Positions 3,078 through 18,166 of a stretch of 18,949 nucleotides of DNA are shown piece by piece (position 1 is the stretch's first letter; every line of letters begins with the position of its first letter). Under the pieces are notes generated by a model. The model worked only from the letters and a program-made list of their open reading frames with translations, was not told the origin of the DNA and searched no databases. A program made the position numbers and the translations under genes. Origin of the DNA: an uncultured Candidatus Competibacteraceae bacterium (GTDB lineage Bacteria; Pseudomonadota; Gammaproteobacteria; Competibacterales; Competibacteraceae); NCBI GenBank assembly GCA_937872125.1, contig CALMNY010000282.1, positions 1 through 18,949 of the forward strand. The letters run 5' to 3'.

Positions 3078-3100
3078 GGGGCGGCTCCTAGCGCGGGCGC

Positions 3101-4174
3101 CTAGACATACTCGCCCGCGCCGGCGCTGGGCAGGGTCAGCCGGCCGTCTTCGGCGAGTTTGCGGGCGATGGCGACGATCTTGCGCTGCGCGGTTTCCACA
3201 TCCGTCAGGCGCACCGCGCCGCGCAGTTCGATCTCTTCCTTGAGGATGTCCGCGGCATCGGCGGACATGTTGCTGAAGAACCGCAGCTGGACGTCGGCCG
3301 TCGCCGCCTTGAGGGCAATGATGAGGGTGTCGGCATCGACCTGGCGGATCAGCAATTGCAGGCCGCGGTCGTCGATGCGCGCCAGGTGGTCAAACAGCAG
3401 CACCAGGCGGTCGGCCATGGCCGGATCGTAGGCCCGCACCCGGGCCAGGATCTCGGCCTCGTCCTGGTAATCGACCAGGCTGACAATGTCGGCGGCGGCG
3501 CGAATGCCCCCGGGGCCGGTGAGCTTGGGCGCCGCCCGGCTGTCCGCCAGGAGGCGGGCCAGGGCCGTGTCGAGCTCCTGCAGGGCGGCCGGGCGCACCC
3601 GGTCCAGGGTCGCCAGGCGCAGGATGACATCGCCGCGCAGGGTGCCCGGCAGGTGATGGACGATGCGCGCGGCCTGGGCAGGGTCCAGATGGGCAAAGAT
3701 GGTGGCAATGATCTGCGGGTGCTCGTTGCGGATCAGTTCCGCCGCATCCTCCGGCGCGATCCAACGCAGCTGGCGAATACTCGCCACCCCCACGTTCGGC
3801 AGGAAATGCTCGATCAGGTGCGAGGCCTGCTCGCTGCCCAGGGCGGTGGCGAACAGGTCGCGAATCTGGGTCGGATCGGCGTACACCGGCGGCCCCCCCT
3901 GCACCTGCGCCTGCAGCTCCACCAGCAGGTCGATCGCCACCGGGCGCGGCACGGTCGGCATGGCCGCCATGGCCTGGCCCAGCCGCACCTGGAGAGCGGT
4001 ATCGAGGTAGCGCAACACCGCGCCGGCGGGCTCCGGCCCCAGCGCCAGCAGCAGCATCGCCGCCTTTTCGACGCCGGTCAGGCCGGCCGGCGCGGGGGGC
4101 GCGGCGGCGGCGGGCGCGCCGCCCGGCGCCGCGGGGGATTCCGGGGTGGCCGTCGGGTTACTGGACGCTGCCAT
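3101..4174 (-). CDS. fliG: Flagellar motor switch protein FliG
   Basis: FliG forms the upper C ring, sits on FliF and takes torque from the stator. The 357 residues follow the family plan: N-terminal FliF-binding domain (LTGVEKAAMLLLALG at about 31-45), middle domain with the EHPQ motif at about 151-154 that contacts FliM, then AAADIVSLVD, the charged torque helix IDDRGLQLLIRQVD at about 267-280, and a C-terminal end RLAEDG-like segment finishing in GEYV. About 28 Ala/Pro/Ser-rich residues precede the usual N-terminus. The MFxF hinge motif seen in many FliG proteins reads LLF here, a mild change that may alter switching. It starts 3 bp after the fliF stop codon, so expression is probably coupled to fliF. 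Confidence 0.96.
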   Translation of the reverse strand: MAASSNPTATPESPAAPGGAPAAAAPPAPAGLTGVEKAAMLLLALGPEPAGAVLRYLDTALQVRLGQAMAAMPTVPRPVAIDLLVELQAQVQGGPPVYADPTQIRDLFATALGSEQASHLIEHFLPNVGVASIRQLRWIAPEDAAELIRNEHPQIIATIFAHLDPAQAARIVHHLPGTLRGDVILRLATLDRVRPAALQELDTALARLLADSRAAPKLTGPGGIRAAADIVSLVDYQDEAEILARVRAYDPAMADRLVLLFDHLARIDDRGLQLLIRQVDADTLIIALKAATADVQLRFFSNMSADAADILKEEIELRGAVRLTDVETAQRKIVAIARKLAEDGRLTLPSAGAGEYV

Positions 4175-4177
4175 TGG

Positions 4178-5821
4178 TCACTTCATCCATTCGCGAATTA
4201 CATGGGCGACCAGCCGCGGGTCGGTGCGGGCGAGTTCCCGGGCGCGGTCGAGGTGCGCCGCGTAGTCACCCGGCGCGCTGCCCTCGCCCGGGGCGCCCGG
4301 ACCCTCCCGGCGGCCGCTGAGGCTGACGCGCACGTCGTCGGCGGCTGCCGGGTCCCGCCGGCCGCTGTCCGGTCCGCGGATGGCGCGCAGCAGGGGGCGC
4401 AGCAGGGTGAAATAGGCCACCACCCCCGTCACGAGCACCATGACCCAGATGAGCAGGGTATTGATGAGTTGCAGCATCTCCTGGTCCTGCCAGAGGGGGA
4501 TCGCCGGGCCGTCTGCATTGAGGAACCGGGTGCTGGAGACGGCCAGGGTGTCGCCGCGCGCCTCCTGGATACCGACCGCTTCCGTGACCAGGTTGGCGAT
4601 GAGTTTCAGCGGGTCAACGCCGGCCGCCGGGTCCGGTGGGGGGGTGAGGGCGTCGTCATTGACCACCACCGCGACGGACAGCCGTTTGATCTGGCCCACC
4701 GGGCGCTTGGTGTGCGCGATGGTGCGGTCGACCTCGAAATTGGTGGTGGAACTGGTGCGGGTGCTCTGCTCGCCGGTGGGGGCGCCGGGGACCACCGGCG
4801 GGGTGGTGATGGGCGCGGTGGCCGGAACCGGCGGCTGGTTGGTCAAGGCCCCCGGCACGCCCTGGATGGTCGGCCCGCGCTGCTGCTCGTTGGCGAGGGT
4901 CTGACTGCGTATCGCCTGGTCCTTGTCCGGATTCGGCTTAAAGGTTTCGGCCGTCTGTTCGACCTCGCTGAAATCCACGTCCGCCGTCACCTGAGCACGG
5001 AAATGGTGGGCGCCGAACAGCGGTTCGAGCAGGTGGTTGATGCGCGCAACGTAATCGGCCTCCAGTTGCCGCACGTAGGCGATTTGCCCGGCATTCAGGC
5101 CCAGGCGGCCGCCGGGCCCGTCCGGGGCGGTCAGCAGCTCGCCGCGTTCGTTGACCAGACTGACCGCGGCCGGACTGAGTTGCGGCACGCTGGCGGAGAC
5201 GAGATGGACGATCCCGGCAATCTGGCCGGCATCGAGCGAGCGCCCCGGACGCAGGGTGATAAAGACCGAGGCGCTGGGCTTTTGGCTGTCACGCAGAAAG
5301 GCGGTGGGCCGCGGGATGGCCAGATGCACGCGCACCGCGGCGACCGCGCCCATGGCGCTGATGGTGCGCGCCAGCTCGCCCTGCAGGCTGCGCTGGTAGT
5401 TCACCTGCTCGCCGAATTGCGACAGGCCGATTTTCTGCTCATCCAGCAATTCGAAGCCGACGTGCCCGCCGCTGGGCAGGCCGCTGGCGGCGAGGCGCAG
5501 CCGGGTTTCGTGGACGGTCGTCCGCGGCACGAGAATGACCGCGCCGTCCCCCGACAGGCGATAGGGGACATTCTGCTGTTGCAGCGCGGTGATGATCGCG
5601 GCGCCGTCGCGGGCGTCCAGGTTGGAAAACAGGACGCCATACTCGGCCTCGCCGCGCCACAGCAGCAGGGCCGCGAGCAGGGCGAACACCAGGGCGCCAC
5701 CGACGGCCGCGGTGATTTTGCGCGCCGGGGACCACGTGGCCAGCCGTGCGCCCAGGGCGCTCAGGCGCGTGCGCAGGGTCGCGGCGGCTGCAGGTGGCGC
5801 GGCGGACTCAGGGTTGGGCAT
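4178..5821 (-). CDS. fliF: Flagellar MS-ring protein FliF
   Basis: FliF builds the MS ring in the inner membrane, around the export gate. From the ATG at 5821 the protein is 547 residues, close to the usual 550-570. It has a cytoplasmic N-terminus, a first membrane segment around KITAAVGGALVFALLAALLL, the periplasmic ring-building motifs (EYGVLFSNLDARDGAAI, LARTISAMGAVAAVRVHLA, PSASVFITLRPG), a second membrane segment near IWVMVLVTGVVAYFTLLRPL, and a C-terminal FliG-binding end ARTDPRLVAHVIREWMK. An upstream in-frame TTG at 5932 would add 37 Pro/Arg-rich residues with no ribosome binding site, so I prefer the ATG, although its own Shine-Dalgarno is also weak. It is the first gene of the fli operon here; fliE, often just upstream, is replaced by the end of the EPS cluster. 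Confidence 0.95.
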   Translation of the reverse strand: MPNPESAAPPAAAATLRTRLSALGARLATWSPARKITAAVGGALVFALLAALLLWRGEAEYGVLFSNLDARDGAAIITALQQQNVPYRLSGDGAVILVPRTTVHETRLRLAASGLPSGGHVGFELLDEQKIGLSQFGEQVNYQRSLQGELARTISAMGAVAAVRVHLAIPRPTAFLRDSQKPSASVFITLRPGRSLDAGQIAGIVHLVSASVPQLSPAAVSLVNERGELLTAPDGPGGRLGLNAGQIAYVRQLEADYVARINHLLEPLFGAHHFRAQVTADVDFSEVEQTAETFKPNPDKDQAIRSQTLANEQQRGPTIQGVPGALTNQPPVPATAPITTPPVVPGAPTGEQSTRTSSTTNFEVDRTIAHTKRPVGQIKRLSVAVVVNDDALTPPPDPAAGVDPLKLIANLVTEAVGIQEARGDTLAVSSTRFLNADGPAIPLWQDQEMLQLINTLLIWVMVLVTGVVAYFTLLRPLLRAIRGPDSGRRDPAAADDVRVSLSGRREGPGAPGEGSAPGDYAAHLDRARELARTDPRLVAHVIREWMK

Positions 5822-6054
5822 GCGGGGCCGGGGCGCGCGCGAGCGGCGGCGTGGCCGCGGGGGGTCCGGTGCGCCCGTCGCGGCGGGGCGGGGCGGCGTG
5901 GCACCCCGCCCGGCGGGGGTCGGGCAGGCCAAGGGCAGCGGTAGCGCGGGGCTGAATCAGGGGGTTCTCCCGGGGAACGACGCGAAGGGTGGAGCGGCGG
6001 ACGGCGCCCCGCCGCCGGCCCATCCGACGGTCGGGCGGGGACAGGGCGCGAGTG

Positions 6055-6099
6055 ATTATAGGGTGGAACCGCCGGGCGGTTTCTGACCAATTCTGTCAG
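6055..6099 (-). promoter_or_regulatory. Candidate promoter and operator of the fliF operon
   Basis: Reading on the minus strand, a perfect TATAAT lies at 6060-6055, overlapping the stop codon of the upstream gene. Exactly 20 bp upstream is GGTCAGAA (6088-6081), within CTGAC-N7-GTCAG (6083-6099), an inverted repeat. No good -35 hexamer is seen at 16-18 bp, so an activator-dependent promoter is likely. The same GGTCAGAA, 20-bp gap and -10 layout precedes the EPS operon. The transcript would start near 6048, giving a leader of about 225 nt before the fliF ATG. Confidence 0.5.
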
Positions 6100-7351
6100 C
6101 GCTACCCCCGGCCAGGCCCGGCGCGACCGGCGCGAACCGCGCGGTGGCCGCGGGCGGCGAATGGCCGGCCCGGCGGAAGCCCGTGGCGCCTAACAACAGG
6201 AAGCCGAGCCACAGATCGTCATGCCATAATTCCCCGCCATAGAGAATCATTACCGTAACGAACAGCACCGCGCTGTAGGGGCCCAGCCGCGCCCGCAGCT
6301 GGTAAAAGCGCCGCCCCAGCAGGACGAGGAACCCCAGGGTGGCGACCAGTCCCCATTCGGCCAGCAAGGTGCTGTAGCTGTTGTAGGGCTTGTTGAGGCT
6401 TGAACTGAGGGCGAAGGCATCCTGCTCGTTCACCGCGAGCAGCGCGCCGAGATAGTCATAGTGATAGTCGCTGGCAAACAGCCCCGGCAGGGTGGGCACG
6501 CCGTGCCCCGACGGCAGCAGGGCGCTGCCCCACAGGGCGGGGACGCTGGAGAACTGCCCCAGGCCGGCGCCGCGCAGCAGGGTGGCCGGTTGTTCGCGAT
6601 ACAGGGCGAGGACGGTGTCGAAGGCCAGGCGTTTCGGATGGGCGCCAAATTCGCTGGCGAGGGTGGTGTTCACCAGGTCCAGGCGCAGCAGGGCGTAGGC
6701 CAGCGGCAGGGCGATCACCAGCACCCCGGCCGCCAGCAGCAGGGGCCGGCGCCGGACCAGCAGGCTCAGGCCCGCCACGCCGGCGACAATGCCGACGATG
6801 TAACTCGGCAGGAGAAAGTTGATCAGCGCCAGCAGGCGCGCCCCGCGCCCGGGCCGGTCGCTGAGCTGTTCCGCCACCAGGCCAAAAAAGCCGATGAGGG
6901 TGACCAGTTGCGCCCCGCCCACGCCGTAGGCGCCAAAGTATTCATCCGGGAGATAGTCGCGGTAGGGGAGGCGCAGGGGAAACCCCAGGGTGAGGAGATG
7001 GTAAAAGCTGAACCCGGCCACCAGGACGTTGAGCAGCCGCACCACCTGGGTCGCCTGGGCGGCGGTGAGGCGCACCGGCGCGCCGGCCAGGAACAGCAGG
7101 GTGGGCAGGACCAGGGCTACCTCCAGCCCCAGGGCGGTGACCGAGACCCCCGGCCCCTGCAGATAGAAGGCGAGGGCGAACCACACCAGCCCTCCCACCA
7201 GCACCACCAGGGTGGCGCGGCGCAGGCGTCCTAGATCCACCAGCAGCAGGCTGGCGAGCAGGTACAGGGGATAGGTGGCCGCGCTGCGCGGCAGGGTAAG
7301 GAGCACCGCCACCAGTGCCGGCAGGAGCAGGCGGTAGCGCCAGGTAATCAT
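6056..7351 (-). CDS. O-antigen/EPS polymerase-like membrane protein (Wzy-like)
   Basis: From the ATG at 7351, which overlaps the preceding stop codon as ATGA, the protein has 431 residues. It is a polytopic membrane protein with roughly ten to twelve hydrophobic segments and a large soluble loop in the second half (about LDLVNTTLASEF to NKPYNSYSTLLAEWG), the topology of Wzy polymerases that join repeat units at the periplasmic face. The loop contains GAGLGQFSS and NSYSTLLAEWGLVA, similar in layout to the G-P-G and H-N-Y-L-E-W blocks of Wzy/WaaL proteins. It is the last gene of the EPS operon. The C-terminal tail of about 40 residues is non-hydrophobic, and its DNA includes the CTGAC element and the -10 of the fliF promoter. 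Wzy function is inferred from topology and context; sequence alone does not separate polymerase from ligase. Confidence 0.75.
   Translation of the reverse strand: MITWRYRLLLPALVAVLLTLPRSAATYPLYLLASLLLVDLGRLRRATLVVLVGGLVWFALAFYLQGPGVSVTALGLEVALVLPTLLFLAGAPVRLTAAQATQVVRLLNVLVAGFSFYHLLTLGFPLRLPYRDYLPDEYFGAYGVGGAQLVTLIGFFGLVAEQLSDRPGRGARLLALINFLLPSYIVGIVAGVAGLSLLVRRRPLLLAAGVLVIALPLAYALLRLDLVNTTLASEFGAHPKRLAFDTVLALYREQPATLLRGAGLGQFSSVPALWGSALLPSGHGVPTLPGLFASDYHYDYLGALLAVNEQDAFALSSSLNKPYNSYSTLLAEWGLVATLGFLVLLGRRFYQLRARLGPYSAVLFVTVMILYGGELWHDDLWLGFLLLGATGFRRAGHSPPAATARFAPVAPGLAGGSADRIGQKPPGGSTL
6080..6095. repeat. 16-bp direct repeat, left copy, at the EPS/flagella border
   Basis: TTTCTGACCAATTCTG on the plus strand is identical to 18145-18160, about 12 kb away at the other border of the EPS cluster. 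Its neighbour on the left is CCGGGCGGTTTC, while the right copy is followed by CCGGCGGTTTC, so the two modules occur in swapped order. Confidence 0.9.
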
Positions 7352-8772
7352 CGGCCGGCGCGCCCCCGGCGCCAGGCCCGGGCCAGGGTCAGCAGCAGCT
7401 TGGGCAGCGCCCGCCACCAGCGGCCCCGCCAGAGGTAGTACCGCAGTTCATCGCCGGCCATCAGCACCGGGAACAGCAGGAAGTGGCGATGGCGGCGGGC
7501 GAGGAGATAGCGCTGATGCGAGCGCGCGGCCAGGCGCGCCCGCAGCCGGTACAGCTGAGCGCGGCGGCGCGACACGCCGGCGGTGCCGGGGGCGATACGC
7601 TTGGCGGGGCGCCAGGCGCCGCGCTGGTCGGCGTCGTGCAGCCGCAGGGCCAGGCCTTCCCGGCGGTGGCGGAAACTGGCCGCTTGCGAGCGCACGATCT
7701 CCGGGGCGGCCAGGGCGGTGAGCGTCAGGCGCCCGGCGGCGGCCGCGGCGCTCAGCAGCGTCAGCAGCGCGGGATGGCGCACGATCAGCACATTGGCGCC
7801 GCGGGGATCGGCGACATAGCCGGGCAGCCAGGCATCCCCGGCCGCCAGATCCGCCAGTTCCCCGGCGACGTCGTCACACCCGTCGCAGGCCTGGGGCTTG
7901 AACAGCCCGAGGCCCCAATCCAGTCCGTAGAGCTTGGCGATCGGCACCACCCGCGGGGGCGCGGCCGCGGCGGCCAGGGGCGTGACGCTCACGGCGTAGC
8001 GGTTGGCGGGCGCCCCCGGGCGTTTATGGCGAAAGTCGATGGCAAAGGGTTCGCCGGGCGGGACGCCGCACTGCCAGGCAATCATTTCGGCAAAGGCCTT
8101 GCTTTTGAGGTGGCCGCAGAAAATGGCCAGGCAATAGGGGAGCGCCGCGCGCAGGGCCGGGTCCTGGCGGGCGAGGAGGCGGACCGCCTTGACGAAGCAG
8201 GGCACGCCGACGAAGGCAAAGCGCTGGCCGCGCCCGGCGAGGCCCTGGAGCACCTGGGCGAACTGCACCGGATAGTAGCGGGATTTGGCCCCCTGGCGCA
8301 CCGCCGCGACCGAGGTCGAGAGGCGGTACGCAAACTGGCCGGGCTGGTCGGCGGCGGGCGCCACGTGGATCACGCCGTCGATGTCTCCCCGGCGTAACAA
8401 TTCGCTGACCAGCCAGGTGACCAGGCCGCCGGAACTGCCGGCGGCGCGATAGTCGCCTTCGGTCACCGCGCCGGCGTACAGGCCGGCGTAGCGCCCCAGG
8501 AGCGGATGGTGATGGGGGGCGTCGGGGAAGAGTTCGGGCGCCAGGTGGTCCTCGTTGGCGGTGGCGGCGAAGGGGCAGACCTGGCCAGCCGCCGGCCGGG
8601 GCCGGGGCGGCAGGACGGCGGTGTAGAGGCCGTGGGGGGTTTCGGCGAGGGTGATGCGCGGATCCGCCACCGCGCAGGCGCCGCAGCCGATGCAGTAGCC
8701 GTGGGTCACCACCGCGGCCAGCACCGCCGCGGGGTCGTCCGGGGGAGGGAAGGGCGGGGGGACGGTGGTCAT
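7348..8772 (-). CDS. FrhB-like coenzyme F420 hydrogenase/dehydrogenase beta-subunit family protein
   Basis: The 474-residue protein starts at the ATG at 8772, which overlaps the flippase stop codon as ATGA. The N-terminus has C27-x2-C30-x2-C33 (GYCIGCGACAV) and C66-P, a pattern that could hold one 4Fe-4S cluster. Next come AGSSGGLVTWL, FVGVPCFVKAVRLL, LAIFCGHLKS and KPQACDGCDDVAGELADLAAGD, the recognised blocks of the FrhB family. The C-terminus is rich in Arg, with a hydrophobic/aromatic stretch that may touch the membrane. Members of this family occur in bacterial polysaccharide clusters, often next to pyruvyl transferases, where their substrate is not established; a flavin or F420-like redox role is known only for the archaeal enzymes. 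The gene stop overlaps the next start, so it is a full member of the EPS operon. Confidence 0.85.
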   Translation of the reverse strand: MTTVPPPFPPPDDPAAVLAAVVTHGYCIGCGACAVADPRITLAETPHGLYTAVLPPRPRPAAGQVCPFAATANEDHLAPELFPDAPHHHPLLGRYAGLYAGAVTEGDYRAAGSSGGLVTWLVSELLRRGDIDGVIHVAPAADQPGQFAYRLSTSVAAVRQGAKSRYYPVQFAQVLQGLAGRGQRFAFVGVPCFVKAVRLLARQDPALRAALPYCLAIFCGHLKSKAFAEMIAWQCGVPPGEPFAIDFRHKRPGAPANRYAVSVTPLAAAAAPPRVVPIAKLYGLDWGLGLFKPQACDGCDDVAGELADLAAGDAWLPGYVADPRGANVLIVRHPALLTLLSAAAAAGRLTLTALAAPEIVRSQAASFRHRREGLALRLHDADQRGAWRPAKRIAPGTAGVSRRRAQLYRLRARLAARSHQRYLLARRHRHFLLFPVLMAGDELRYYLWRGRWWRALPKLLLTLARAWRRGRAGR

Positions 8773-10064
8773 CGCGCGCCTCGCGGGGTGGGGGTGGGAA
8801 AGACCTGACGGCGCAGACCGCGCCAGTAGAGCCACGTCAGCACGAGGTCGCTGATCACCGTGGCCACCGCCGCGCCGGTCGCGGCGAAGGCGGGAATCAG
8901 GGCCAGATTGAGGGCCACGTTCAGCGCCGCGGTCAGCCCCATGTAGCGGACCTTGCGGTGGATATGCTCCCGGGTGCTCAACACCGCGCCCATGCCGGTG
9001 GCGACAAAGCGGAAGGGGACGGCGCAGGCCAGCACCATCAGCAGGTCGCTGGCGGCGGCATAGGCGTCGCCGAACAGCAGGCGGATCAGCGGCGGCGCCA
9101 GCCCCCACAGCGCCAGCCCGGCCAGCACGCCCAGCCCGGCCAGGACGCGGACGCTGGCGCGATAGGCCTGGTGGAAGCGCGCGCGGTCGTGATGCGCCCA
9201 GCGGTGCAGCTTGGGCTGCAGGTATTTCTGCACCAGGGCGGTGGGCAGCAGATAGACGCCGACCAGGGCGACAAACGCTACCTGGTAGACGCCGGCGGCG
9301 GCGGTGCCCACCAGCAGGCTGAGCAGGAGGATGTCGCTCTGGAAGTAGATCAGGTAAAACAGGCTGCCGAGGCCATAGGGCCAGGCCGCGCGGGCCACGG
9401 CGCGCCCGGACGGCACGGGCGCGGCGGGGGCCGCCACGGGCTGATGGCCGCGCAACCGCAGGCGGCGCAGGGCGCCGGGACGCGCCCAGACCAGGGTCAG
9501 GCCCAGGGTGAGGAACGCCACCACCAGCCAGACGCCGGCCACCTGGGGCACGCTCACTGCCGGGCCGGCCACGCCCAGCAGGCCGCCGAGCAGCCCCAGG
9601 CGCAACCAGGGCGGCGCCGCCTGCAGGAGCGCCAGGGTACGATACCGTTCCTCCAGCTGCAGGCGCGCCGCGGCCAGTTCCAGGCCCAGCTGCGCCGCCA
9701 CCTGGCCGGCGAGCAGGGCGATGACCAGGCCCACCCCCGGGGGGGCGCCCCCGGCGGCCCAGGCCAGCAGGCCGGCGGTGACCAGCGCGGTGCTGAGCGC
9801 GGCGAACCGATAGCTCCCCGGCAGCCAGCGGTGGGCCTGATAGCCCTCTTCCCCGTAGCGGCGCAGCCACAGCGGCGCCAGTCCCAGCCCGGCGAGCGGC
9901 GCCGCCAGGGAGACGCCGCTCCAGGCCGCGGCGAACAGGCCATAGTCGGCGGGCCCCAGGATGCGGGCCTGCACCACCTGGGTCAGGAAGGTGGCCGCCG
10001 CGCCGGAAAGCGCCCCCAGCCACAGGGCGGCCAGGGCGGCGAGGGTGTGCCGGGAGAGGCGCAT
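8769..10064 (-). CDS. Polysaccharide repeat-unit flippase (Wzx/MATE-type)
   Basis: From the ATG at 10064 the protein has 431 residues, standard for Wzx. Around twelve to fourteen hydrophobic helices are visible, with an N-terminal ARILGPADYGLFAAAWSGV segment that is characteristic of Wzx/polysaccharide transporters and a mid-protein LGSLFYLIYFQSDILLLSLL segment beginning the second half. The role would be to move the undecaprenyl-linked repeat unit from the cytoplasmic to the periplasmic leaflet. It begins 16 bp after the pyruvyl transferase stop and overlaps the FrhB-like gene by 4 bp. A longer frame reaching 10484 is only the antisense-free continuation through the preceding gene in another frame and has no family features. 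Confidence 0.88.
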   Translation of the reverse strand: MRLSRHTLAALAALWLGALSGAAATFLTQVVQARILGPADYGLFAAAWSGVSLAAPLAGLGLAPLWLRRYGEEGYQAHRWLPGSYRFAALSTALVTAGLLAWAAGGAPPGVGLVIALLAGQVAAQLGLELAAARLQLEERYRTLALLQAAPPWLRLGLLGGLLGVAGPAVSVPQVAGVWLVVAFLTLGLTLVWARPGALRRLRLRGHQPVAAPAAPVPSGRAVARAAWPYGLGSLFYLIYFQSDILLLSLLVGTAAAGVYQVAFVALVGVYLLPTALVQKYLQPKLHRWAHHDRARFHQAYRASVRVLAGLGVLAGLALWGLAPPLIRLLFGDAYAAASDLLMVLACAVPFRFVATGMGAVLSTREHIHRKVRYMGLTAALNVALNLALIPAFAATGAAVATVISDLVLTWLYWRGLRRQVFPTPTPRGAR

Positions 10065-10080
10065 CAGCGGCGGGGGACCG

Positions 10081-11301
10081 TCAGCGCCCCCACCACTGCC
10101 GCAGCGCCTCCCGGCTGGCCTGCCGCGCCGGTTCCAGGGCCGCGCGCAGCTGGGTGGTGAGGGCCGGCGCCTGGGCGCGCAGGACCCGGAAACGCGCTTC
10201 CAGGGCGGCGGCGGTGGCCTGCGGCAGCGGCAGCACATACTCCCGGGTGCCGAGCAGCTGTTGGTTGATGCCGGTGGCCTTGACGCTGTAACTGAGCGAC
10301 AGGGTGGGGATGCCCTGCGACAGCGCGGCGAGGGTGGTGTGGGTGCGGGCGCCGATAAAGGTCTGGCAGCGACCGATGAGCCCCTTGTACTGGGCGGCGT
10401 TCCACGTCGGGGGCGCGAGCCAGACGGCGCCGCGCACCGCCGGCTCCAGGCGCGCTTCCAGGGTGCGCAGCACCTGATAATCATCCGCGCCGCGGCGGCC
10501 GGGGCGGGCCATGACGTGGGGGATGAGGACCACGAACAGGTCGTCGCGCCGCACCCGCGCGCGGACGAATTGGGCCATTTCCCGATAGAAATCCAGCCCG
10601 TGGCGGGTGGCCAGCTGGTAGGCGATCGGGCTCAGATTGAGCCCGAGCAGCTGCTTGCCGGCCGCCTGGGCGTGGTCGAGCCGCGGCGCCGCCGCCATCT
10701 CGGCGGGCAGATGGAAGGCGGGATCGGTCGCCAGGGTCAGATTCTTCACGCCCGCGGCCGCCAGATAGTCGCGGGAGAGGGGCTCGCGGACGACCACGCC
10801 GGTGAAGCGGCGCAGATGGGCCAGCAGGGCCCGCTCCAGCGCGGGATGGGCATGAAACGGGCCGACGGAGGCCCCCCACAGCAGGGTGGGGATGCCGGCG
10901 TCCAGCGCGGCCGCGTCCAGGCTGGCAATGCGCACCGGCGGACCGTAATCGAGGGAGTACATGTCGCCGCCCAGGGACAACACCCGGTCCGCGGCGGCGA
11001 GCGCGGCGCGCTGGCGGGGATTAAGCGGCAGCCGGGTGACCCCGTCGTGGCGCGCCGGCCAGCGGCGCGCCATCAGGAAGCGCCAGGCGTGGTGCCACAG
11101 GGGGCGGGGATAGGTGGGGACAAAGCGCACGCCGGCCGCCTCATGTTCCGGCCATTGCTGGCGGTCGAACGCCGGCAGATCACTGGGGACCAGGATCTCG
11201 GCGCCCGGGGCGATCTCGTTGAGCAATTGACAGGTGGAGCGCACCAGCGCTTCGCAGCCGCGGTTGGCGAAATTACGCTGGCCAGTGAGATAGATGCGCA
11301 C
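10081..11301 (-). CDS. Polysaccharide pyruvyl transferase family protein
   Basis: The 406-residue protein (start GTG, with AGGGG 6 nt upstream) matches the polysaccharide pyruvyl transferase fold: N-terminal NRGCEALVRS, LSLGGDMYSLDYG, LLWGASVGPF, VVREPLSRDYL, and the C-terminal GARTHTTLAALSQGIPTLSL followed by YSVKATGINQQLLG, which is the usual G-x-R-x-H ... Y-x-x-K signature. Family enzymes such as CsaB and WcaK-type proteins transfer a pyruvate ketal from phosphoenolpyruvate to a sugar, giving the polymer a negative charge. It lies after a 171-bp AT-rich gap with its own candidate promoter and precedes the flippase by 16 bp. The donor is inferred from the family and was not tested here. Confidence 0.9.
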   Translation of the reverse strand: MRIYLTGQRNFANRGCEALVRSTCQLLNEIAPGAEILVPSDLPAFDRQQWPEHEAAGVRFVPTYPRPLWHHAWRFLMARRWPARHDGVTRLPLNPRQRAALAAADRVLSLGGDMYSLDYGPPVRIASLDAAALDAGIPTLLWGASVGPFHAHPALERALLAHLRRFTGVVVREPLSRDYLAAAGVKNLTLATDPAFHLPAEMAAAPRLDHAQAAGKQLLGLNLSPIAYQLATRHGLDFYREMAQFVRARVRRDDLFVVLIPHVMARPGRRGADDYQVLRTLEARLEPAVRGAVWLAPPTWNAAQYKGLIGRCQTFIGARTHTTLAALSQGIPTLSLSYSVKATGINQQLLGTREYVLPLPQATAAALEARFRVLRAQAPALTTQLRAALEPARQASREALRQWWGR

Positions 11302-11402
11302 AAGAAGCCCCTATTGATGGAGAAGAAGACAGCGAAATCCGCGCCTGACGAACACCTGCCTGGTGGGTCATGGTGAGCAGCGGCTTTGCGGTATTCCATC
11401 GT

Positions 11403-11431
11403 TATATAAAAAAAGACGGTAATGATTACAA
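11403..11431 (-). promoter_or_regulatory. Candidate internal sigma-70-type promoter
   Basis: In an AT-rich island on the minus strand, TTGTAA (11431-11426) and TATATA (11408-11403) are separated by 17 bp. A perfect inverted repeat GTAATCATTAC (11419-11429) overlaps the -35 and could be an operator. Transcription would start near 11396, giving a leader of about 95 nt before the pyruvyl transferase GTG at 11301. This would allow the distal half of the EPS operon to be expressed on its own. Confidence 0.5.
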
Positions 11432-11472
11432 AATGCCCGTCGTACCCGGTTGATTTGCTGGCCTGACCGCCT

Positions 11473-12435
11473 TCACGACTCCGGCACACGCGCGGGGCCG
11501 GCTGTCCACCCGGGCCGGTGACGGCGCACGCTCCGCCCGAGACCGCCCAGCAGGGCGCCCGCGCAGGCGCCGGGACTGGCGCGGCAGCCGCGCGTGAGAT
11601 AGGTCCAGCAGGCCGCCGCCTCGCCCTCGGTGAGGGCCAGGCCCGCCAGGCGGCCATACAGCGCGCCCTGAGCGCGGGCGCGGTGTCGGTCCGGTAACGC
11701 CTGCAGTTCCGCGGCGAACGTCCGCCAGAAGGCTTCCACGCCGGCGAGAATCACCTGCGCCCGGCGCCGGCCGCTGAAGTTTTTCCGATAGAGCGACTGC
11801 GGCAGGTAATCCACGGCGCCGTGTTGCAGCAGTCGCACCACCAGGGCGACATCCTCCTTGGCGCGCAGCCCGTGCGGAAACCCGCCGAGCGCCTGCACGG
11901 TGTCGCGCCAGCACAGCAGCCCGCTGGTGCTGATGATGTCCTGGCGGAACAGCAGCAGATCGTCCGCAAACCGCGTCCCGACCTGACGGGTCTGCAGGCG
12001 GCCCTGTTCATCGTGCGCCGCGCAGAAATTCGCCACCGCCGCCGGGCGCCGGGCGCACAGCGCGGCATACTGGCGGGCGAGTTTATCGGGATAAAACACG
12101 TCATCGGCATCGGCAAAGGCCAGCACCTGGCCGCGGGCATGGGCCAGCGCCAGGTTGCGCGCGGCGGCCGGCCCCTGGTTGTGGGCGCTGCGCAGGGCCA
12201 GCAGCGGGCGGGGCGCCGGTGTGGCCAACAGGACCTCCCAGGTGTGATCCGGGGAGGCGTCGTCGACGACGATGACCTCGAAATCGGCGAAGGTCTGGGC
12301 GAACAGGCTGGCGAGGGTGGCGGGGAGGGTGGCCGCGGCCCGGTAGGCCGGGAGGATGACCGACACGGCGACCGCGGCGGGGGCGGGCGGCCCCCGCCGT
12401 TCGCGCTGCGCAGGTGCGCGGGGTGGGGTGGCCAT
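11473..12435 (-). CDS. Family 2 glycosyltransferase
   Basis: The 320-residue protein has a GT-A fold signature: VSVILPAYRAAATLPATLAS near residue 25, FEVIVVDDASPDHTWE, NQGPAAARNLALAHARGQVL and FADADDVFYPDKL, where DADD is the metal/nucleotide-sugar-binding DxD. AKEDVALVVRLL fits the ED catalytic-base motif of this family. It would add one sugar to the undecaprenyl-linked repeat unit at the cytoplasmic face. About 23 Pro/Ala/Arg residues precede the domain. It starts 5 bp after the sulfotransferase stop and is followed by the AT-rich gap. The sugar and linkage cannot be told from the sequence. Confidence 0.92.
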   Translation of the reverse strand: MATPPRAPAQRERRGPPAPAAVAVSVILPAYRAAATLPATLASLFAQTFADFEVIVVDDASPDHTWEVLLATPAPRPLLALRSAHNQGPAAARNLALAHARGQVLAFADADDVFYPDKLARQYAALCARRPAAVANFCAAHDEQGRLQTRQVGTRFADDLLLFRQDIISTSGLLCWRDTVQALGGFPHGLRAKEDVALVVRLLQHGAVDYLPQSLYRKNFSGRRRAQVILAGVEAFWRTFAAELQALPDRHRARAQGALYGRLAGLALTEGEAAACWTYLTRGCRASPGACAGALLGGLGRSVRRHRPGWTAGPARVPES

Positions 12436-12440
12436 GGGCG

Positions 12441-13370
12441 TCAGGCACCGCCGGCGGCCAGGGTCAGTGCCGGACAGCAGGCGGCATTTTGCTGCGCCAG
12501 TTCGGCGAAGCGGCGCTGCCAGTCGTCGCGCAGGGTCTCGCGGGGCGGGGGGTGGACCGGGGTGGCGCCGCGGGTCAGGGCGTGCAGGCGCAGCATGGCG
12601 TGCTCGAACACCCAGCGCGTCACCGGGTTGTCCATCAGGCCGGGATGGAGTTGGCGCGCCTGGCGCGCCAGGATGCGCGCGCGGCGGGCGAGCGGCTGGG
12701 TGAGGTCCGGGACCGCGTTGGGGTAGACGGCAAAGTCGAAGTCATGGGTGGGCAGCCCGAGAAAGTCCAGCACCGCGCCCATGAAGGCGGGGGAGGCGAT
12801 CTGCTGGGTGTCGATATTCGCCAGGCGCACCCGTTCCAACCCGAACAGCGCGCGGGCCCGGGTGACGGCGGGGGTCAGCGCCGAGGCCTTGTGGTAGCCG
12901 CCCAACAGCCAGTGCGCGCGCTCGCCCCGCGCCTCCTCGTCCAGGGCCTGTTCGAAGCTGCGCGTTTCCTCGCCACGGGAGACGGAGAAGCGGAAATGGG
13001 AGCGGGCGCGCGGCAACGGCGCGCGATGCAGGAAAACGAAATAGGGGTCGATGTCCCGGTCCGCGGCGATGGCGGCGAAGGCCTCGGGATGGACGCAATA
13101 CAGGGTGCTGGCGTCGATGTGCAGCGTGGCGGGCGCCCCCGCGCGCAGATTATGCAGATAGGCCGCGCGGTCCTGACAAAATCCCAGCGTGGGGTACGGC
13201 CGGCGGGCGCGACCCTCGTAAGCGTACAACCGCGCGGCGTCCCCGGCGGGTAAAAAGAAATGCGGTTCCTTGTGCCGCGGCGCGGCGACGGCGGGGTGTT
13301 GCCCCAGGAGCGAGGCCAGGGTGGTGGTGGCGCAGCGGGGCAGTCCGGGAATGAAGACGATTTTCAGCAT
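12441..13370 (-). CDS. PAPS-dependent sulfotransferase family protein
   Basis: The 309-residue protein opens with FIPGLPRCATTTLASLLGQH, a good 5'-phosphosulfate-binding loop, followed by KEPHFF, and near residue 113 FVFLHRAPLPRARSHFRF, the 3'-phosphate-binding block with a conserved Arg and Ser. These are the two PAPS-binding signatures of heparan-type and bacterial carbohydrate sulfotransferases. Between the two glycosyltransferases in this cluster it most likely sulfates a sugar of the EPS. A sulfate group would need PAPS from cysteine/sulfate assimilation genes that are not in the window. The start ATG is clear but its Shine-Dalgarno is weak. A protein or lipid acceptor cannot be excluded. 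Confidence 0.82.
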   Translation of the reverse strand: MLKIVFIPGLPRCATTTLASLLGQHPAVAAPRHKEPHFFLPAGDAARLYAYEGRARRPYPTLGFCQDRAAYLHNLRAGAPATLHIDASTLYCVHPEAFAAIAADRDIDPYFVFLHRAPLPRARSHFRFSVSRGEETRSFEQALDEEARGERAHWLLGGYHKASALTPAVTRARALFGLERVRLANIDTQQIASPAFMGAVLDFLGLPTHDFDFAVYPNAVPDLTQPLARRARILARQARQLHPGLMDNPVTRWVFEHAMLRLHALTRGATPVHPPPRETLRDDWQRRFAELAQQNAACCPALTLAAGGA

Positions 13371-13412
13371 GGGCGGTCGCGGGGGTCTCCGTGGTGGGGG
13401 TGAGGGGGGCCG

Positions 13413-13428
13413 CCCCCGCGCGCGGGGG
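13413..13428. other. Perfect GC palindrome between glycosyltransferase and sulfotransferase genes
   Basis: CCCCCGCGCGCGGGGG is a perfect 16-bp palindrome in the 78-bp gap between two EPS genes. On either strand it could fold to a short hairpin; no T-run follows on the minus strand, so it is not a normal intrinsic terminator. An overlapping GGGGG-CCG-CCCCC pairing is also possible. It may modulate mRNA stability or translation within the operon. Confidence 0.35.
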
Positions 13429-13448
13429 TGACCGTCGGGGCGCGGGCG

Positions 13449-14252
13449 TCAGCGCCCGCCGGGGTCGGGCGCCGGCGTCCAGGGAGCCGGCCGCGGCGGC
13501 GCGGCGGGCGCCCCGACCACGTCGATGACCAGGCGCCCGGCGAGGAGATCGCGGGCCAGGCGCAGGGCATGACGGGGATAGTCGAGCAGGTAGCGGCGCA
13601 CCGTGTGCGGTTCCTGGACCATGCGATACAGAAAACGCAGCTGCAGGCGATTGATCCAGTCCGGGTAGTAGCGCAGGGCCGCGCTGCCGGCCGTCTGGCG
13701 GATGAAGCCGCCGCAGGTCAGCGCCGTGCCGGTAAAGCCGTGGGCGCGGGCGGCGGCGATGAAGCGCTCCTGCAAGCCGCCGCCCAGGCCCACCAGCAGC
13801 ACGCGGGCCGGGGAGGCGGCAAGCGCCTGACAGGTGGTGGTCCAGTCCTGGGCGGGGAAATACCCGGGGTGAGCGCCCACCACCCGTAAGCCGGGATAGT
13901 GCGCGCTCAGCTTGGCGACGAACGCCGCCAGTTCCTCCGCCCGGGCGCCGACCAGGTAGAGGGGGAGACCGGCGTCCTGGCAGTTAGCGAAGACCGCCGG
14001 GGCGATGGAGGTATAGTCGAAACTGACCCGCGGCAAACGCGGCAGACGGCCGCCCGTCAGCAGGCGTAGCAGCCCGAGCAGCAGGAAGCCGTCGCCATAC
14101 CAGACGAAGTCGCGGCGCTGCGCGGCTGGGACGGCCAGCACCGGGTATAAGGACGCCAGATTCACAAAGGAGATCGACGTGCCGGGGGCAAAATCCAGGG
14201 TGAACGCGCGGGCAAAGGTCAGGCGTTCCGCCGGTGGGGGACGGGTGGTCAT
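13449..14252 (-). CDS. WecG/TagA/CpsF-family glycosyltransferase
   Basis: From the ATG at 14252 (GGAG 11 nt upstream) the protein has 267 residues, the family size. Members act on undecaprenyl-pyrophosphate-linked sugars as the second transferase. Visible blocks are VNLASLYPVLA near the N-terminus, FVWYGDGFLLLG (equivalent to the LPDGxGV block with the catalytic Asp), LYLVGARAEE, VVGAHPGYF, LLVGLGGGLQERFIA (family: GxGxPxQExWI), and YPDWINRLQLRFLYRMVQEP plus RRYL, matching the W-x-x-x-x-x-LEW-x-YR-x-x-x-EP end. The P in G-x-P-x-QE and the RAP before the Trp are altered, so it is a divergent member. It follows the WcaJ gene by 47 bp, which fits a second-step role. Confidence 0.82.
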   Translation of the reverse strand: MTTRPPPAERLTFARAFTLDFAPGTSISFVNLASLYPVLAVPAAQRRDFVWYGDGFLLLGLLRLLTGGRLPRLPRVSFDYTSIAPAVFANCQDAGLPLYLVGARAEELAAFVAKLSAHYPGLRVVGAHPGYFPAQDWTTTCQALAASPARVLLVGLGGGLQERFIAAARAHGFTGTALTCGGFIRQTAGSAALRYYPDWINRLQLRFLYRMVQEPHTVRRYLLDYPRHALRLARDLLAGRLVIDVVGAPAAPPRPAPWTPAPDPGGR

Positions 14253-14299
14253 CCGGGGGGTTACTCCAGGCGAGAAGGAACGGGCGGCCGGCGGGGCGC

Positions 14300-15706
14300 T
14301 CAATAGGCGGCGTGGCCGCCAAAGCCCCGCAACACGGTGCGCAGAATGATCTTGAGATCCAGCCACAGCGACCAATGGCGGATATACCAGAGGTCATGCT
14401 CGACGCGTTTGACCATCTTGTCCTCGGTGTCCGTTTCGCCGCGCCAGCCGTTCACCTGCGCCCAGCCGGTGATGCCGGGGCGCACCAAATGGCGCAGCAT
14501 GTAGCCGTGGATCTTGCCGCGGTACAGCTCGTTATGGGCGATGGCATGCGGGCGGGGACCGACGATGGACATCTCGCCGCGCAGGACGTTGAGGAATTGC
14601 GGCAGTTCATCCAGGGAGGTGCGGCGCAGCAGGGCGCCCACCCGCGTCACCCGCGGGTCCTGGCGCTGCGCCTGGGTCACCACCGGGCCGTCTTCACACA
14701 CCGTCATGGTGCGGAATTTCCACACCTGGATCTCGCAACCATTGATGCCATAGCGCCGCTGTTTGAACAGCACCGGTCCCGGTGAGGAGCGCTTGACCGC
14801 CACGGCGATCAGCGCCAGCGGCAGGGCGATCAGCGGCAGGATCAGCGCGGCGCCGAGCACGTCTTCCAGGCGTTTCAGCCAGCCGGCGACCCCCCAGAAC
14901 GGCGTGTCATAGACCGACACCAGCGGCACGCCGTGCAGACTGGACCAGCGCCCTCCGGTGAGCGGCCCGGTGACCAGCGGCGGGACGAGAAACACCGAGA
15001 CGGTGGTGTCGGCGAGCTGGTCGATCAGCCGCTGCGCCAGGCGCCAGGCCGCCGGGGGCAGGGCGATATAGATGATCGCCACCTCGCCGCGGCGGGCGAG
15101 GCGCTCAATCTGCTGCAACTGCGCGGCGTGGCGGTCGGCGTCGCCCGCGGTGTATGCCAGCGCCGTGTGCAGTTCCAGCCCCAGCCACGGCTGCCGGGCG
15201 AGGGCGTGGGTCAGGTGGCGGGCGGCGGCGCCGCTCCCCCACACCAGGGTCGGGCGGCGGGTGGCCAGCGGTACCGCGAGCCGGGCGTAGAGCGGGCGGT
15301 AGAGCAGGCGCCATCCGCACAGGGCCAGGGGCACGGCGAGCAGCCACAGGCCGGTGGCGGTGCGGGAAAAGGAGGCGGTGGTTTTTAGGGCGTAGGCGAG
15401 GGCCAGCAGGATGAGGACCACCTGCAGCCACACGCCGCCGATGACCAGCCACTGGCGGCCGGGGGCCTCGGCCAGCCAGGGTCGGTAGAGGTGGCGCGCG
15501 TCGCCGAGGAGGACAAACAGCCCCGCAGCCAGGGCGGCGAGGACGACGTAGTCGGTGGTCAGCGGAATCTGGCGCCCCCAGACGAAGAGCGCGAGCAGTC
15601 CGGCGATGACCGTGAGGTCGACGACCTTGACCAGAAAGGCGGCGGCGACGTGGGGCGTGCCGGCGGTATGCGCGGGCAGGGAGAGGGTGTCGGCATGACT
15701 GGACAT
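14300..15706 (-). CDS. wcaJ: Undecaprenyl-phosphate sugar phosphotransferase, WcaJ type
   Basis: This enzyme starts the repeat unit by moving a hexose-1-phosphate, typically glucose, from UDP-sugar to undecaprenyl phosphate. The 468 residues have about four N-terminal membrane segments, a Rossmann-like central region (LVWGSGAAARHL), then a further membrane segment and the catalytic polyprenyl-phosphate transferase domain: SSPGPVLFKQRRYGING, VWKFRTM, LRRTSLDELPQFLNVLRGEM followed by SIVGPRP, and RPGITGWAQVNG. The C-terminal RVEHDLWYIRHWSLWLDLKI and GGHAAY endings resemble E. coli WcaJ. The full-length, two-domain form is complete. The next gene in the operon is the second-step transferase. Glucose as substrate is inferred from the subfamily; galactose-specific relatives exist. 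Confidence 0.93.
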   Translation of the reverse strand: MSSHADTLSLPAHTAGTPHVAAAFLVKVVDLTVIAGLLALFVWGRQIPLTTDYVVLAALAAGLFVLLGDARHLYRPWLAEAPGRQWLVIGGVWLQVVLILLALAYALKTTASFSRTATGLWLLAVPLALCGWRLLYRPLYARLAVPLATRRPTLVWGSGAAARHLTHALARQPWLGLELHTALAYTAGDADRHAAQLQQIERLARRGEVAIIYIALPPAAWRLAQRLIDQLADTTVSVFLVPPLVTGPLTGGRWSSLHGVPLVSVYDTPFWGVAGWLKRLEDVLGAALILPLIALPLALIAVAVKRSSPGPVLFKQRRYGINGCEIQVWKFRTMTVCEDGPVVTQAQRQDPRVTRVGALLRRTSLDELPQFLNVLRGEMSIVGPRPHAIAHNELYRGKIHGYMLRHLVRPGITGWAQVNGWRGETDTEDKMVKRVEHDLWYIRHWSLWLDLKIILRTVLRGFGGHAAY

Positions 15707-15759
15707 GGGGAACGCGGTCTCGGGACGTGATCAGGCGCCGGCGCGGGCCGGCGGGAGGG

Positions 15760-17193
15760 TCAGTTGAGGGGTGGGGCGGTCGTCACCGGCCACCGGGTGG
15801 CGCGGGCGGCGGCGGAGCAGGTGCCGCCACGGGCGGCGCGGCGGGGCGGGCGCGCCGGCGGGGGGGCAAAAAACACCCCGGCCAGGACGGCAAAGACCAG
15901 CTGGTTGAGCGGGATCCGCAAGCCATAGTCGACCAGCTCATGGCCGGCGACGAGCAGCAGCCCCAGGCCGGCCCCCAGCGGGAGGGGGTTCGCCGCCGCC
16001 CGGCGCGCCGCGCGCACCACCCGGTAGCCCTGGAGCCAAAAGGCGCCGAGGGCGGCACTCAGCAGCAGCGCGCCAGGGGCGCCGGTTTCCACCAGCCATT
16101 CCAGGTAGTCGTTGTGCGCGTGGTTGAGCACCACGTCGGGCAGGGTCACCGGCTGGGCGGGGGGCATGACCAAGGCGTAGGTGCCGGGACCGCTGCCCAG
16201 CGGCCACCAGGCGCGCAGCACCTCCAGGGTGACGGTGAGGATGCGCGGGCGGGCATCCGCCAGCAGGGCGTCGACGCTGAAGCGGGCGATCACCGGCGCC
16301 AGACCCATGACGCTGGCCACGCCCAGGGCGAACAGCAGGAGGCCGCCGGCGACGCCGAGGGCGCGGCCCGCGCGCCACCGGGGGGCGCCCAGGGTGAGCG
16401 CCAGGACCAGCCCCAGCAGGGCCAGGGTGATGCCGGTGCGGGAGCGGGTGAAGAGGAGGCAGAGCAGGAGGAAGGCGGCCACCGCGCCATAGCCCAGGGC
16501 GCGCTGACGGGCGGCGGCCGCGTCCGGGCGCTGGCCCGCGGGCGGGCGCAGGGTGAGCAGCACCGCCAGCGGCACCAGCATTTCCAACAGCAGCGCCAGG
16601 TGGTTGCGGTTGGTGAAGCTGCCGGTGGCGGAACCGGCGTGCGCCCCCTGCGCCAGCAGCCAGGCGGAGCCGCTGCTGGCGCTGGCGAATTGCAGCAGGC
16701 CATACAGGCCCTGGGCGACGGCCAGGGCGAGGAGCAGCCCCAGCAGCCGGACGTGGTGCGCGGGGCCGAGCTGGCGCACGGCGAGAAACACCGCCAGCGG
16801 CGCCAGCAGGTCCAGGGCCACCGCCCAGGTGGCGAAGGGGGCGAGGCTCAGGGGCGCCCAGGCCGGTTCGCCGGCCCCCAGCCACGTGCCCGGCGCGTGG
16901 TACCGCGCGTGCCCGCCTAGGTCGGCGAGCCCGGCGGCGGGCAACGGCAGGAGGTAGAGCCAGGGGAGGAGGGCGAGCGCCGCCAGCCCGGCGGTCAGGC
17001 GCGGGGCCGGCCGGACCGCCGGCGCCCCCCCCAGGGCCGCGCCCAGGGTCAGGACCGCCCCCGCCTGCAACCCGGTGCTGGTCAGGGGGCCGGGCCAGAC
17101 GGCGACCGCCAGGGCGGCGGCCAGCAGGGCGGTGACGGCCCAGGTGAGGCGCGTGGCGGCCCGCGCCGCCGGGGTCCGGGCGTCAGGCGTCAT
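15760..17193 (-). CDS. O-antigen ligase/polymerase family membrane protein
   Basis: The 477-residue protein has about twelve hydrophobic helices and the Wzy_C/O-antigen ligase blocks: GSFTNRNHLA, LFTRSRTGI, PLGSGPGTYALVMPPAQPV and NHAHNDYLEWLVETGAPG in the large periplasmic loop. These contain the Arg and His residues typical of WaaL and related enzymes. In an EPS locus it may polymerise or ligate repeat units, and it differs from the second polymerase-like gene at the end of the operon by having clear ligase motifs. Its ATG lies 11 bp inside the 3' end of the phosphatase gene, suggesting coupled translation. The C-terminus is rich in Ala/Arg/Pro. Polymerase, ligase or protein glycosylation ligase roles cannot be separated by motif alone. 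Confidence 0.88.
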   Translation of the reverse strand: MTPDARTPAARAATRLTWAVTALLAAALAVAVWPGPLTSTGLQAGAVLTLGAALGGAPAVRPAPRLTAGLAALALLPWLYLLPLPAAGLADLGGHARYHAPGTWLGAGEPAWAPLSLAPFATWAVALDLLAPLAVFLAVRQLGPAHHVRLLGLLLALAVAQGLYGLLQFASASSGSAWLLAQGAHAGSATGSFTNRNHLALLLEMLVPLAVLLTLRPPAGQRPDAAAARQRALGYGAVAAFLLLCLLFTRSRTGITLALLGLVLALTLGAPRWRAGRALGVAGGLLLFALGVASVMGLAPVIARFSVDALLADARPRILTVTLEVLRAWWPLGSGPGTYALVMPPAQPVTLPDVVLNHAHNDYLEWLVETGAPGALLLSAALGAFWLQGYRVVRAARRAAANPLPLGAGLGLLLVAGHELVDYGLRIPLNQLVFAVLAGVFFAPPPARPPRRAARGGTCSAAARATRWPVTTAPPLN

Positions 17194-18034
17194 CGGCAGC
17201 TCCCGCCCGCCTTCCCCCGCGCGGGCGGTCCCAGCGGGGCAGCCAGCGCCGCAGCCCGCCCGGCGGGCGCCGTACCGGGAGCGAGCGGGTCAACCCCGGG
17301 GGGGCGGGCACGGCCTGGGGCGGGCGCTGGGCGAGGATGGCCGCCGGCCGGTCCACCACCAGGCGCGTGGCTTCGTCGGCGCCCAGGAGTTGGGCAGCCC
17401 GCGCTCGCGCGGCGCTCAGTTCCGGGCGGCGCCGGTGGGGATCGTGGGCGTCGCTGGCCAGGACGTGAATCAGACCCTCGGCGGCAAACCGCTCACTCCA
17501 GCGCTGGGCGTGGCGACCAAAGCCCCCGAGCAGCGCCCCGGCGGTGACCTGCAGCCAGGCGCCGGCCTGGGCCGCCTGGAGAAACCACGGGTAGTGGGTT
17601 TCATCCAGCCAGTCCAGCCGTTCGGGGTGGGTAATCAGGGGGATGAAATCCGCCTGCAGCGCGTCCTGGATCTGAGCCAGGAAGCGCGCCGGAACGGCAT
17701 GATGGGGTGGCTCCAGGAGAAAGTACCGGCTGGCGGCCAGGGTGGGATAGCGCCCGTCGCTCAGGGCGGAAAGGCATTCGGGCGTGAGGTAGATATCCGC
17801 GCCGGCACTGACGGCCAGGGGGATGTCGTGCGCCTGCAGTTCCTGGCGAAAACCGGTCAGGGCGGCGGCAATCACGGCAGCGGTATGGGGGTAGAGCCCC
17901 GGATAGATATGCGGCGTGCAGACGCTGTGCGTGATGCCGTCCGCGACGGCAATCCGCGCCATGGCCAGGGCGTCTTCCAACGTCGCGGGCCCGTCGTCAA
18001 GAGCCGGGAGTAAATGACAGTGCAGATCGATCAC
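17183..18034 (-). CDS. CpsB/YwqE-type PHP-domain protein-tyrosine phosphatase
   Basis: The 283-residue protein begins at a GTG and opens with IDLHCHLLPALDDGP, a metal-binding HxH motif of the PHP phosphatases, with TPHIYPGLYP, GADIYL, ITHPER and SDAHD giving the other metal ligands. CpsB/CapC/YwqE enzymes remove phosphate from bacterial tyrosine kinases that control capsule and EPS polymerisation. Residues after about 245 form an extra Arg/Pro/Gly-rich tail not seen in typical 250-residue members. It is the first gene of the EPS operon, behind the CTGAC array. No matching BY-kinase/Wzc gene is in the window. The Shine-Dalgarno is weak (GAGG about 14 nt upstream). Confidence 0.9.
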   Translation of the reverse strand: MIDLHCHLLPALDDGPATLEDALAMARIAVADGITHSVCTPHIYPGLYPHTAAVIAAALTGFRQELQAHDIPLAVSAGADIYLTPECLSALSDGRYPTLAASRYFLLEPPHHAVPARFLAQIQDALQADFIPLITHPERLDWLDETHYPWFLQAAQAGAWLQVTAGALLGGFGRHAQRWSERFAAEGLIHVLASDAHDPHRRRPELSAARARAAQLLGADEATRLVVDRPAAILAQRPPQAVPAPPGLTRSLPVRRPPGGLRRWLPRWDRPRGGRRAGAADDA

Positions 18035-18126
18035 GGCAGCGGATTTAGCCTCGTTTAGACCCCGGGAATGACGCCGATACTCGGCGGGAATGCGGGCGCC
18101 ATATTACCCGGATGCCAGCGCCGACG

Positions 18127-18166
18127 TTCTGACCGGTACTGACATTTCTGACCAATTCTGACCGGC
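18127..18166. repeat. Four helically phased TTCTGACC-type repeats
   Basis: TTCTGACCGG, TACTGACAT, TTCTGACCAA and TTCTGACCGG follow each other without gaps. The first and last units are identical, the second is weakest. Confidence 0.85.
18145..18160. repeat. 16-bp direct repeat, right copy, at the start of the EPS cluster
   Basis: TTTCTGACCAATTCTG is identical to 6080-6095. It spans repeats three and four of the CTGAC array. Confidence 0.9.

Follow-up and report, generated by a model that had tools for sequence, protein, structure and literature searches.

Tandem GTCAGAA arrays before exopolysaccharide and flagellar genes of an uncultured Competibacteraceae bacterium: candidate boxes of a shared response regulator

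Tandem-box promoters and the two promoters of the window

The sites of the regulators OmpR, CpxR, RstA and TorR consist of tandem half-sites with a period of about 10 bp, arranged in arrays of several dimers. The same layout was found in the present study in an 18,949-nucleotide contig of an uncultured Candidatus Competibacteraceae bacterium (contig CALMNY010000282.1, C282, referred to below as the window; source genome GCA_937872125.1, G000), where arrays of GTCAGAA units precede an exopolysaccharide (EPS) operon and the flagellar gene fliF. The consensus words of the four regulators are different, and we know of no GTCAGAA site described for them.

The arrays also resemble promoters of the Salmonella regulator PhoP. 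According to the PhoP study, boxes located 21-23 nt from the -10 hexamer define promoter architecture III, directly oriented boxes are active at 12, 23 and 33 nt, and a box at 25-28 nt shows little activity (PMC3335776). The arrays share with architecture III promoters the hexamer direct repeat, the direct orientation and a similar distance to the -10, and some PhoP promoters possess a second, upstream box (PMC3335776).

In the window, the word GGTCAGAA is located on the minus strand at 6088-6081 (fliF) and 18134-18127 (EPS), and exactly 20 nt separate it from the -10-like hexamers TATAAT (6060-6055) and TAATAT (18106-18101). This identical spacing had been reported in the first-pass annotation and was reproduced at both sites. 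The composite GGTCAGAA-N20-TANNNT occurs twice in the window and in none of 200 dinucleotide shuffles, and GGTCAGAA alone occurs four times, the mean expectation being 0.14. The accompanying statement that neither site has a good -35 at normal spacing also holds, as no sigma-70-type -35/-10 pair passed a consensus scan of 5500-6500 and 17900-18949. What had been overlooked is that both sites are the promoter-proximal units of tandem GTCAGAA arrays with a period of 10 (9) bp:

18127..18163, minus strand: EPS array, four units GGTCAGAA / GGTCAGAA / TGTCAGTA / GGTCAGAA at 18163-18156, 18153-18146, 18144-18137 and 18134-18127, spacing 10, 9 and 10 bp; first G of each GTCAG at 18162, 18152, 18143 and 18133
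18101..18106, minus strand: EPS -10-like hexamer TAATAT, at a distance of 27 bp, counted to its first T from the initial G of the proximal GTCAG; transcription start predicted at about 18094
6081..6098, minus strand: fliF array, two units TGACAGAA (6098-6091) and GGTCAGAA (6088-6081), spacing 10 bp; first G at 6097 (as GACAG) and 6087
6055..6060, minus strand: fliF -10-like hexamer TATAAT, at the same distance of 27; predicted transcription start at about 6048

The genes that follow these arrays, and those between them, are all encoded on the minus strand:

17183..18034, minus strand: first gene of the EPS operon, CpsB/CapC family (PF19567)
6056..17193, minus strand: remaining EPS cluster, with Wzy/O-antigen-ligase-like, WcaJ-type sugar transferase, WecG/TagA/CpsF, sulfotransferase, GT2, pyruvyl transferase, flippase-like and FrhB/FdhB-like genes
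793..5821, minus strand: flagellar genes fliF, fliG, fliH and fliI

An in-frame ATG of fliF was read from the sequence at 5821; the open reading frame (ORF) is listed from 5932. The last ORF of the EPS cluster (6056-7417) has no Pfam match. Its stop codon (6058-6056) sits within the fliF -10, which places the fliF array inside the 3' end of this ORF. Since a scan of 5500-6500 also found no terminator-like site, read-through from the EPS genes into the flagellar genes is possible.

Arrays and promoter distances in the source genome

Searched with the pair pattern GTCAGAANNNGTCAGAA at up to two mismatches, G000 yielded 27 places, compared with 11 in the reversed control. All eight places with no or one mismatch fall at five loci, namely contigs C35, C52 and C283 and the EPS and fliF arrays on C282; three overlapping two-mismatch places on C181 make up a four-unit array. 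The genome thus holds six arrays in total, four of them outside the window:

C52: array before a wza/wzc-type export operon, in which a polysaccharide export protein gene precedes that of a Wzc-like chain-length/tyrosine kinase protein
C181: array before two outer-membrane beta-barrel genes
C35 (L077 6166-6230): six units, the longest array, before a plasmid-type rep gene (6347-7579)
C283: array near the contig end, its downstream gene lying beyond the contig

The distance from array to promoter is given as the offset of the -10, counted to its first base from the initial G of the proximal GTCAG. It is 27 at fliF, EPS, C52 and C181, 26 at C35 and 38 at C283. Expressed as the gap between GGTCAG and the -10, this is 22 nt in four of the six arrays, 21 nt at C35 and 33 nt at C283. 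When offsets 12-59 were scanned with a score, the maximum lay at 27, with permutation p values of 0.0005 for the six G000 arrays, 0.0002 for five (C283 left aside) and 0.00005 for all 11 arrays; nine arrays without the two of the window peak again at 27 (p = 0.016). These p values serve as a guide only, since the hexamer weights and the choice of the proximal unit were set after the G000 sites had been seen.

Ten arrays, found by patterns that demand at least two units, were tabulated. The spacings are 9-10 bp in all ten (9 bp once or twice), and each array has 2, 4 or 6 units. The 30 units of these arrays are mostly GGTCAGAA, and GTCAG is intact in 29 of them, the exception being GACAG at fliF; as G[T/A]CAG was the criterion for choosing units, the tally informs on the behaviour of A7 and A8, not on significance. 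A triple pattern with three mismatches was uninformative (82 matches and 92 in the control) save for the exact array on C181.

The paired motif, in the strict pattern GTCAGWNNNNGTCAGWA, occurs nine times in G000 (control 0) and at most twice per genome in 368 other Gammaproteobacteria (58 of all 369 genomes matched, G000 included), whereas single GGTCAGAA is common in G000, with 145 places and 52 in the reversed control.

The rep gene on C35 matches plasmid replication proteins at about 30-36%, and plasmid replication may thus be under the control of the host regulon. Homologues of the rep protein were found in 1288 records of a plasmid search, all below 60% identity; the array of C35 gave two matches at E 7 in the same kind of search. 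C35 also carries HerA/TraC-like and topoisomerase genes.

Two further leader regions of similar build (L081 3138-3155, minus strand; L082 7323-7340, plus strand) contain GGTCAGAA-NN-GGTCATGAC and a downstream CTGAC, and are possible weak or mixed-orientation sites. A HEARO RNA match is cut off at the window end (18895-18949; 34.2 bits, below the gathering score of 83), and a full-length one is located on C283 (L079 480-704; 94.9 bits) before an RRXRR-HNH gene (756-2132).

Related genomes and a kinase-regulator locus

G000 appears to be a chimeric bin. The GC content of the array contigs, taken in part or whole, is 65-73%, and their tetranucleotide correlation with C282 is at least 0.95, C283 (65% GC, 3.1 kb) being the least certain of them. 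For contigs C163 and C94 and several further sampled loci, the GC content is 60-65% and the correlation with C282 0.80-0.90. Among the 68 loci brought in by motif matches, 47 have a GC content under 66%, while the other 21 reach or exceed this value and in many cases repeat array loci; the high-GC part of the genome is probably incomplete. The FliF protein is 39-41% identical to those of three members of the assigned genus, compared with 60% to that of a Gammaproteobacteria metagenome-assembled genome (L113). A DnaE fragment on C181 has a match in 359 of 369 genomes, with best identities of about 73-75%, and a FastTree phylogeny of 49 matches together with the own sequence placed the latter on a long branch with no close family.

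It follows from the composition of the window's contigs, which differs from that of much of the bin, that genomes of the assigned genus and family are not a fair test of conservation. In these 59 genomes (G000 included), relatives of CpsB, Poly_export and FliF were found in 13, 39 and 30, respectively; the highest listed identities outside G000 are 52%, 46% and 48%, and these relatives are too distant for footprinting. Closer relatives of the C52 export protein (P0002, P0003 and P0004; 88, 80 and 69% identity) are encoded on metagenome contigs. At up to one mismatch, the pair motif occurs at 31 places in 24 other genomes of this set. The 14 places inspected by eye look like single pairs, mostly within coding regions; at L107 the pair is followed after 8 bp by a third GTCAG.

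Among 210 genomes of the order of L113, 41 have a match to GTCAGWNNNNGTCAGWA. G460 has five and G461 two (control 0 in both), and the remaining genomes have at most two each, apart from G454 with ten. The ten matches of G454 (L364 and other contigs) are one 17-base sequence repeated, six copies of which occupy an identical position close to the start of a contig; they are probably an assembly artefact. G560 has three units, an odd number, and G590 and G432 have one pair each; no TANNNT was found at 26-28 at these three loci. Three sites of G460 are as follows, the last two fitting less well than its other sites:

G460:C306: four-unit array (10, 9, 10), TAAAGT at offset 27, before a dsbC-like gene
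G460:C388: TACAGT at 26, or TATACT at 37 behind TTGACC; gap to the -10 of 32 nt, or 21 nt with another hexamer; contig with an integrase
G460:C18: before bioB, -10-like hexamer at 63, off the spacing rule

A -35-like CTGACC or TTGACC is present at C283 of G000 and at G460:C388.

One further locus is shared by G460:C368 and G461:C55, and the stretches of the two genomes are 87% identical by mean column. A first pair has CATGAT at 27; a stretch of about 160 nt separates it from a second pair (CATGCT or CATGAT, likewise at 27), after which comes a short reading frame. Divergent from the first pair is a kinase gene with 7TMR-DISMED2, 7TMR-DISM_7TM, HisKA and HATPase_c domains; tail to tail with it lies the gene of a 219-aa OmpR-family response regulator (Response_reg and Trans_reg_C), so that the kinase gene stands between the regulator gene and the arrays. 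The kinase has the DISMED2 domain, 7TM sensor and kinase core of LadS-type kinases, and one 48% database match is named LadS. LadS is tied to EPS and biofilm control and acts through GacS/GacA; the kinase of G460 and G461 is instead encoded beside an OmpR-family regulator gene. In the plasmid search, the regulator had no match at E 1e-30.

The stretch of about 160 nt ends in a strong intrinsic terminator, as judged by eye, and is a candidate small RNA (sRNA):

L388, about 5200-5355, minus strand: candidate small RNA with a CUCCUCC stretch and terminator
L390, about 8640-8794, plus strand: the same candidate in the other genome

The candidate is proposed from this terminator, the conservation between the two genomes and Rfam matches below threshold. 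It resembles weakly (22.8-31.2 bits) the anti-hemB, Betaproteobacteria toxic sRNA and suhB (MmgR) families, with a conserved CUCCUCC; it is no member by Rfam's rule, as no match reaches the gathering scores (41-50).

Two side observations concern other genomes. In L343 (G143, a genome of another family), a response-regulator gene and a large gene for an exoprotein-like product flank a single strict pair, GTCAGAATTGGTCAGTA, within 1387-1640. The L343 regulator is 36% identical to that of G460; the match may be due to chance, as some 59 loci were looked at. A scan of IMG/VR gave 76 stretches, most of which looked on inspection like simple repeats or phage arrays. Six phage contigs (L213, L214, L226, L228, L266 and L274) have 4-6 copies of a TGTCAGTNNA-like word, in several contigs shortly upstream of TATAAT-like boxes and, by eye, near ArpU/RinA-like and terminase/HNH genes; perhaps these are phage late promoters.

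Interpretation of the arrays

The proposal of one shared DNA-binding activator or repressor gains support with respect to a shared regulator, since the arrays stand before genes of EPS synthesis, EPS export, outer-membrane proteins, the flagellum and plasmid replication, and the distance to the -10 recurs at promoters outside the window. Of the two signs of control, activation fits better, owing to the poor -35s and to a distance of two helical turns, as seen with the boxes of PhoP-type activators.

It is probable, on balance, that the arrays are boxes of an OmpR/PhoB-type response regulator co-activating EPS and flagellar genes. This is the simplest reading of 10-bp tandem half-sites that are mostly even in number, distances of 22 and 33 nt and the lack of a consensus-like -35. 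Three features of an OmpR/PhoB-family regulon were found: tandem direct repeats (spacings of 9-10 bp here, 10-11 bp in the family), a whole-turn distance combined with a weak -35 at most of the sites, and, in G460 and G461, a linked response regulator. Dimers of the regulator would bind the tandem half-sites head to tail, on GTCAGAA pairs spaced 10 bp, with one, two or three such pairs per array. The proximal half-site would end 22 nt, i.e., two helical turns, upstream of the -10, and the bound regulator would make up for the missing -35 and recruit the sigma-70 polymerase. An active kinase would then switch on together the EPS operon, fliFGHI, the EPS export operon and the outer-membrane pair. 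The LadS-like 7TMR-DISM kinase and the 219-aa regulator of G460 and G461 are the likely pair. Binding, activation and the identity of the regulator are inferred here from DNA sequence.

Several points weigh against this interpretation. The kinase and regulator genes were not located in G000: none was among the best 120 listed of 3079 and of 960 matches, own-genome origin being judged by a source mark whose meaning is itself inferred. A tblastn search over the fetched loci gave full-length matches in G460 and G461 only, besides the regulator match in L343 and generic kinase or receiver matches elsewhere. Relatives of the pair are widespread, yet arrays are seen in few genomes. The hexamers CATGAT and CATGCT at G460:C368 were accepted once the offset was already known. 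The PhoP study reports that a box at 21, 22 or 24 nt retains only about 25% of the activity at 23 nt, and gives the PhoP box as (T/G)GTTTA with five nt between repeats and an 11-bp period (PMC3335776), while here the word is GGTCAGAA, the period 10 (9) bp and the number of units up to six. No exact GTCAG pair is present in L113, the nearest FliF relative found, and the pair pattern gave eight matches across its genome and four in the control, with no array. The strict matches in G460 and G461 precede the candidate sRNA locus, dsbC, bioB and the site on the integrase contig, not EPS or flagellar genes, and the EPS and flagellar targets of the regulon come from a single organism. Finally, other protein families can bind tandem 10-bp repeats too.

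That last point leads to the alternative that survives best, although it is unlikely: a different tandem-binding regulator, e.g., of the ribbon-helix-helix or plasmid-partition type, would provide the same co-regulation with no two-component signal. The six-unit array before the plasmid-type rep gene and the integrase on G460:C388, which make it seem that mobile elements carry the boxes, are in its favour; the distance of two or three turns, as in PhoP-type activators, speaks against it, and so do the kinase and OmpR-family regulator genes that neighbour the arrays of G460 and G461.

Still less probable is a silencer or repressor site that shuts down EPS and flagellar genes. The proximal units are located about where a -35 would be, and a repressor would also act there, but no consensus-like -35 is left to repress, and constant spacing across several targets is typical of activators that touch the polymerase.

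The first-pass annotation had suggested a motile/sessile switch, which, taken as opposite control, would mean that one protein activates one operon and represses the other. EPS and flagella are often inversely controlled; nevertheless, such a switch appears improbable here and is not supported by the data. Identical geometry at both promoters, in orientation and offset, points to one sign of control, so that co-activation is expected. The fliF array also overlaps the end of the EPS cluster, both lie on one strand, and no terminator-like site was found in 5500-6500, which likewise speaks against opposite control. Chance is very unlikely at the sequence level, as the pairs, the arrays and the offset all greatly exceed what the controls give, however common the single word may be in G000.

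Two other candidates were rejected. An alternative sigma factor with GGTCAGAA as its -35 does not agree with the 20 nt to the -10 and the further units upstream, the usual spacer between -35 and -10 being 16-18 bp. Iterons of a plasmid rep protein are repeats of about 17-22 bp at a plasmid origin, and the arrays have a 10-bp period and precede EPS, export, outer-membrane protein and flagellar genes as well.

To return to the OmpR/PhoB-type activator, a broader form of this reading is tentative and rather doubtful as a whole: a two-component regulon with a LadS-like sensor, an OmpR-type regulator and a GTCAGAA box, which would co-activate EPS, export, outer-membrane proteins and the flagellar basal body, drive a CUCCUCC sRNA elsewhere and be tapped by mobile elements. 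No description of such a regulon was found in the searches, nor of the GTCAGAA box in the literature searched (titles and abstract openings of one library). What had been a coincidence of two sites becomes a regulon that is defined by its consensus word, its spacing rule and its list of targets, and for which a sensor-regulator pair is a candidate. If the proposal is true, a plasmid replication gene responds to a surface or biofilm signal of the host, and one signal would switch on EPS and flagellar genes together in this uncultured lineage.

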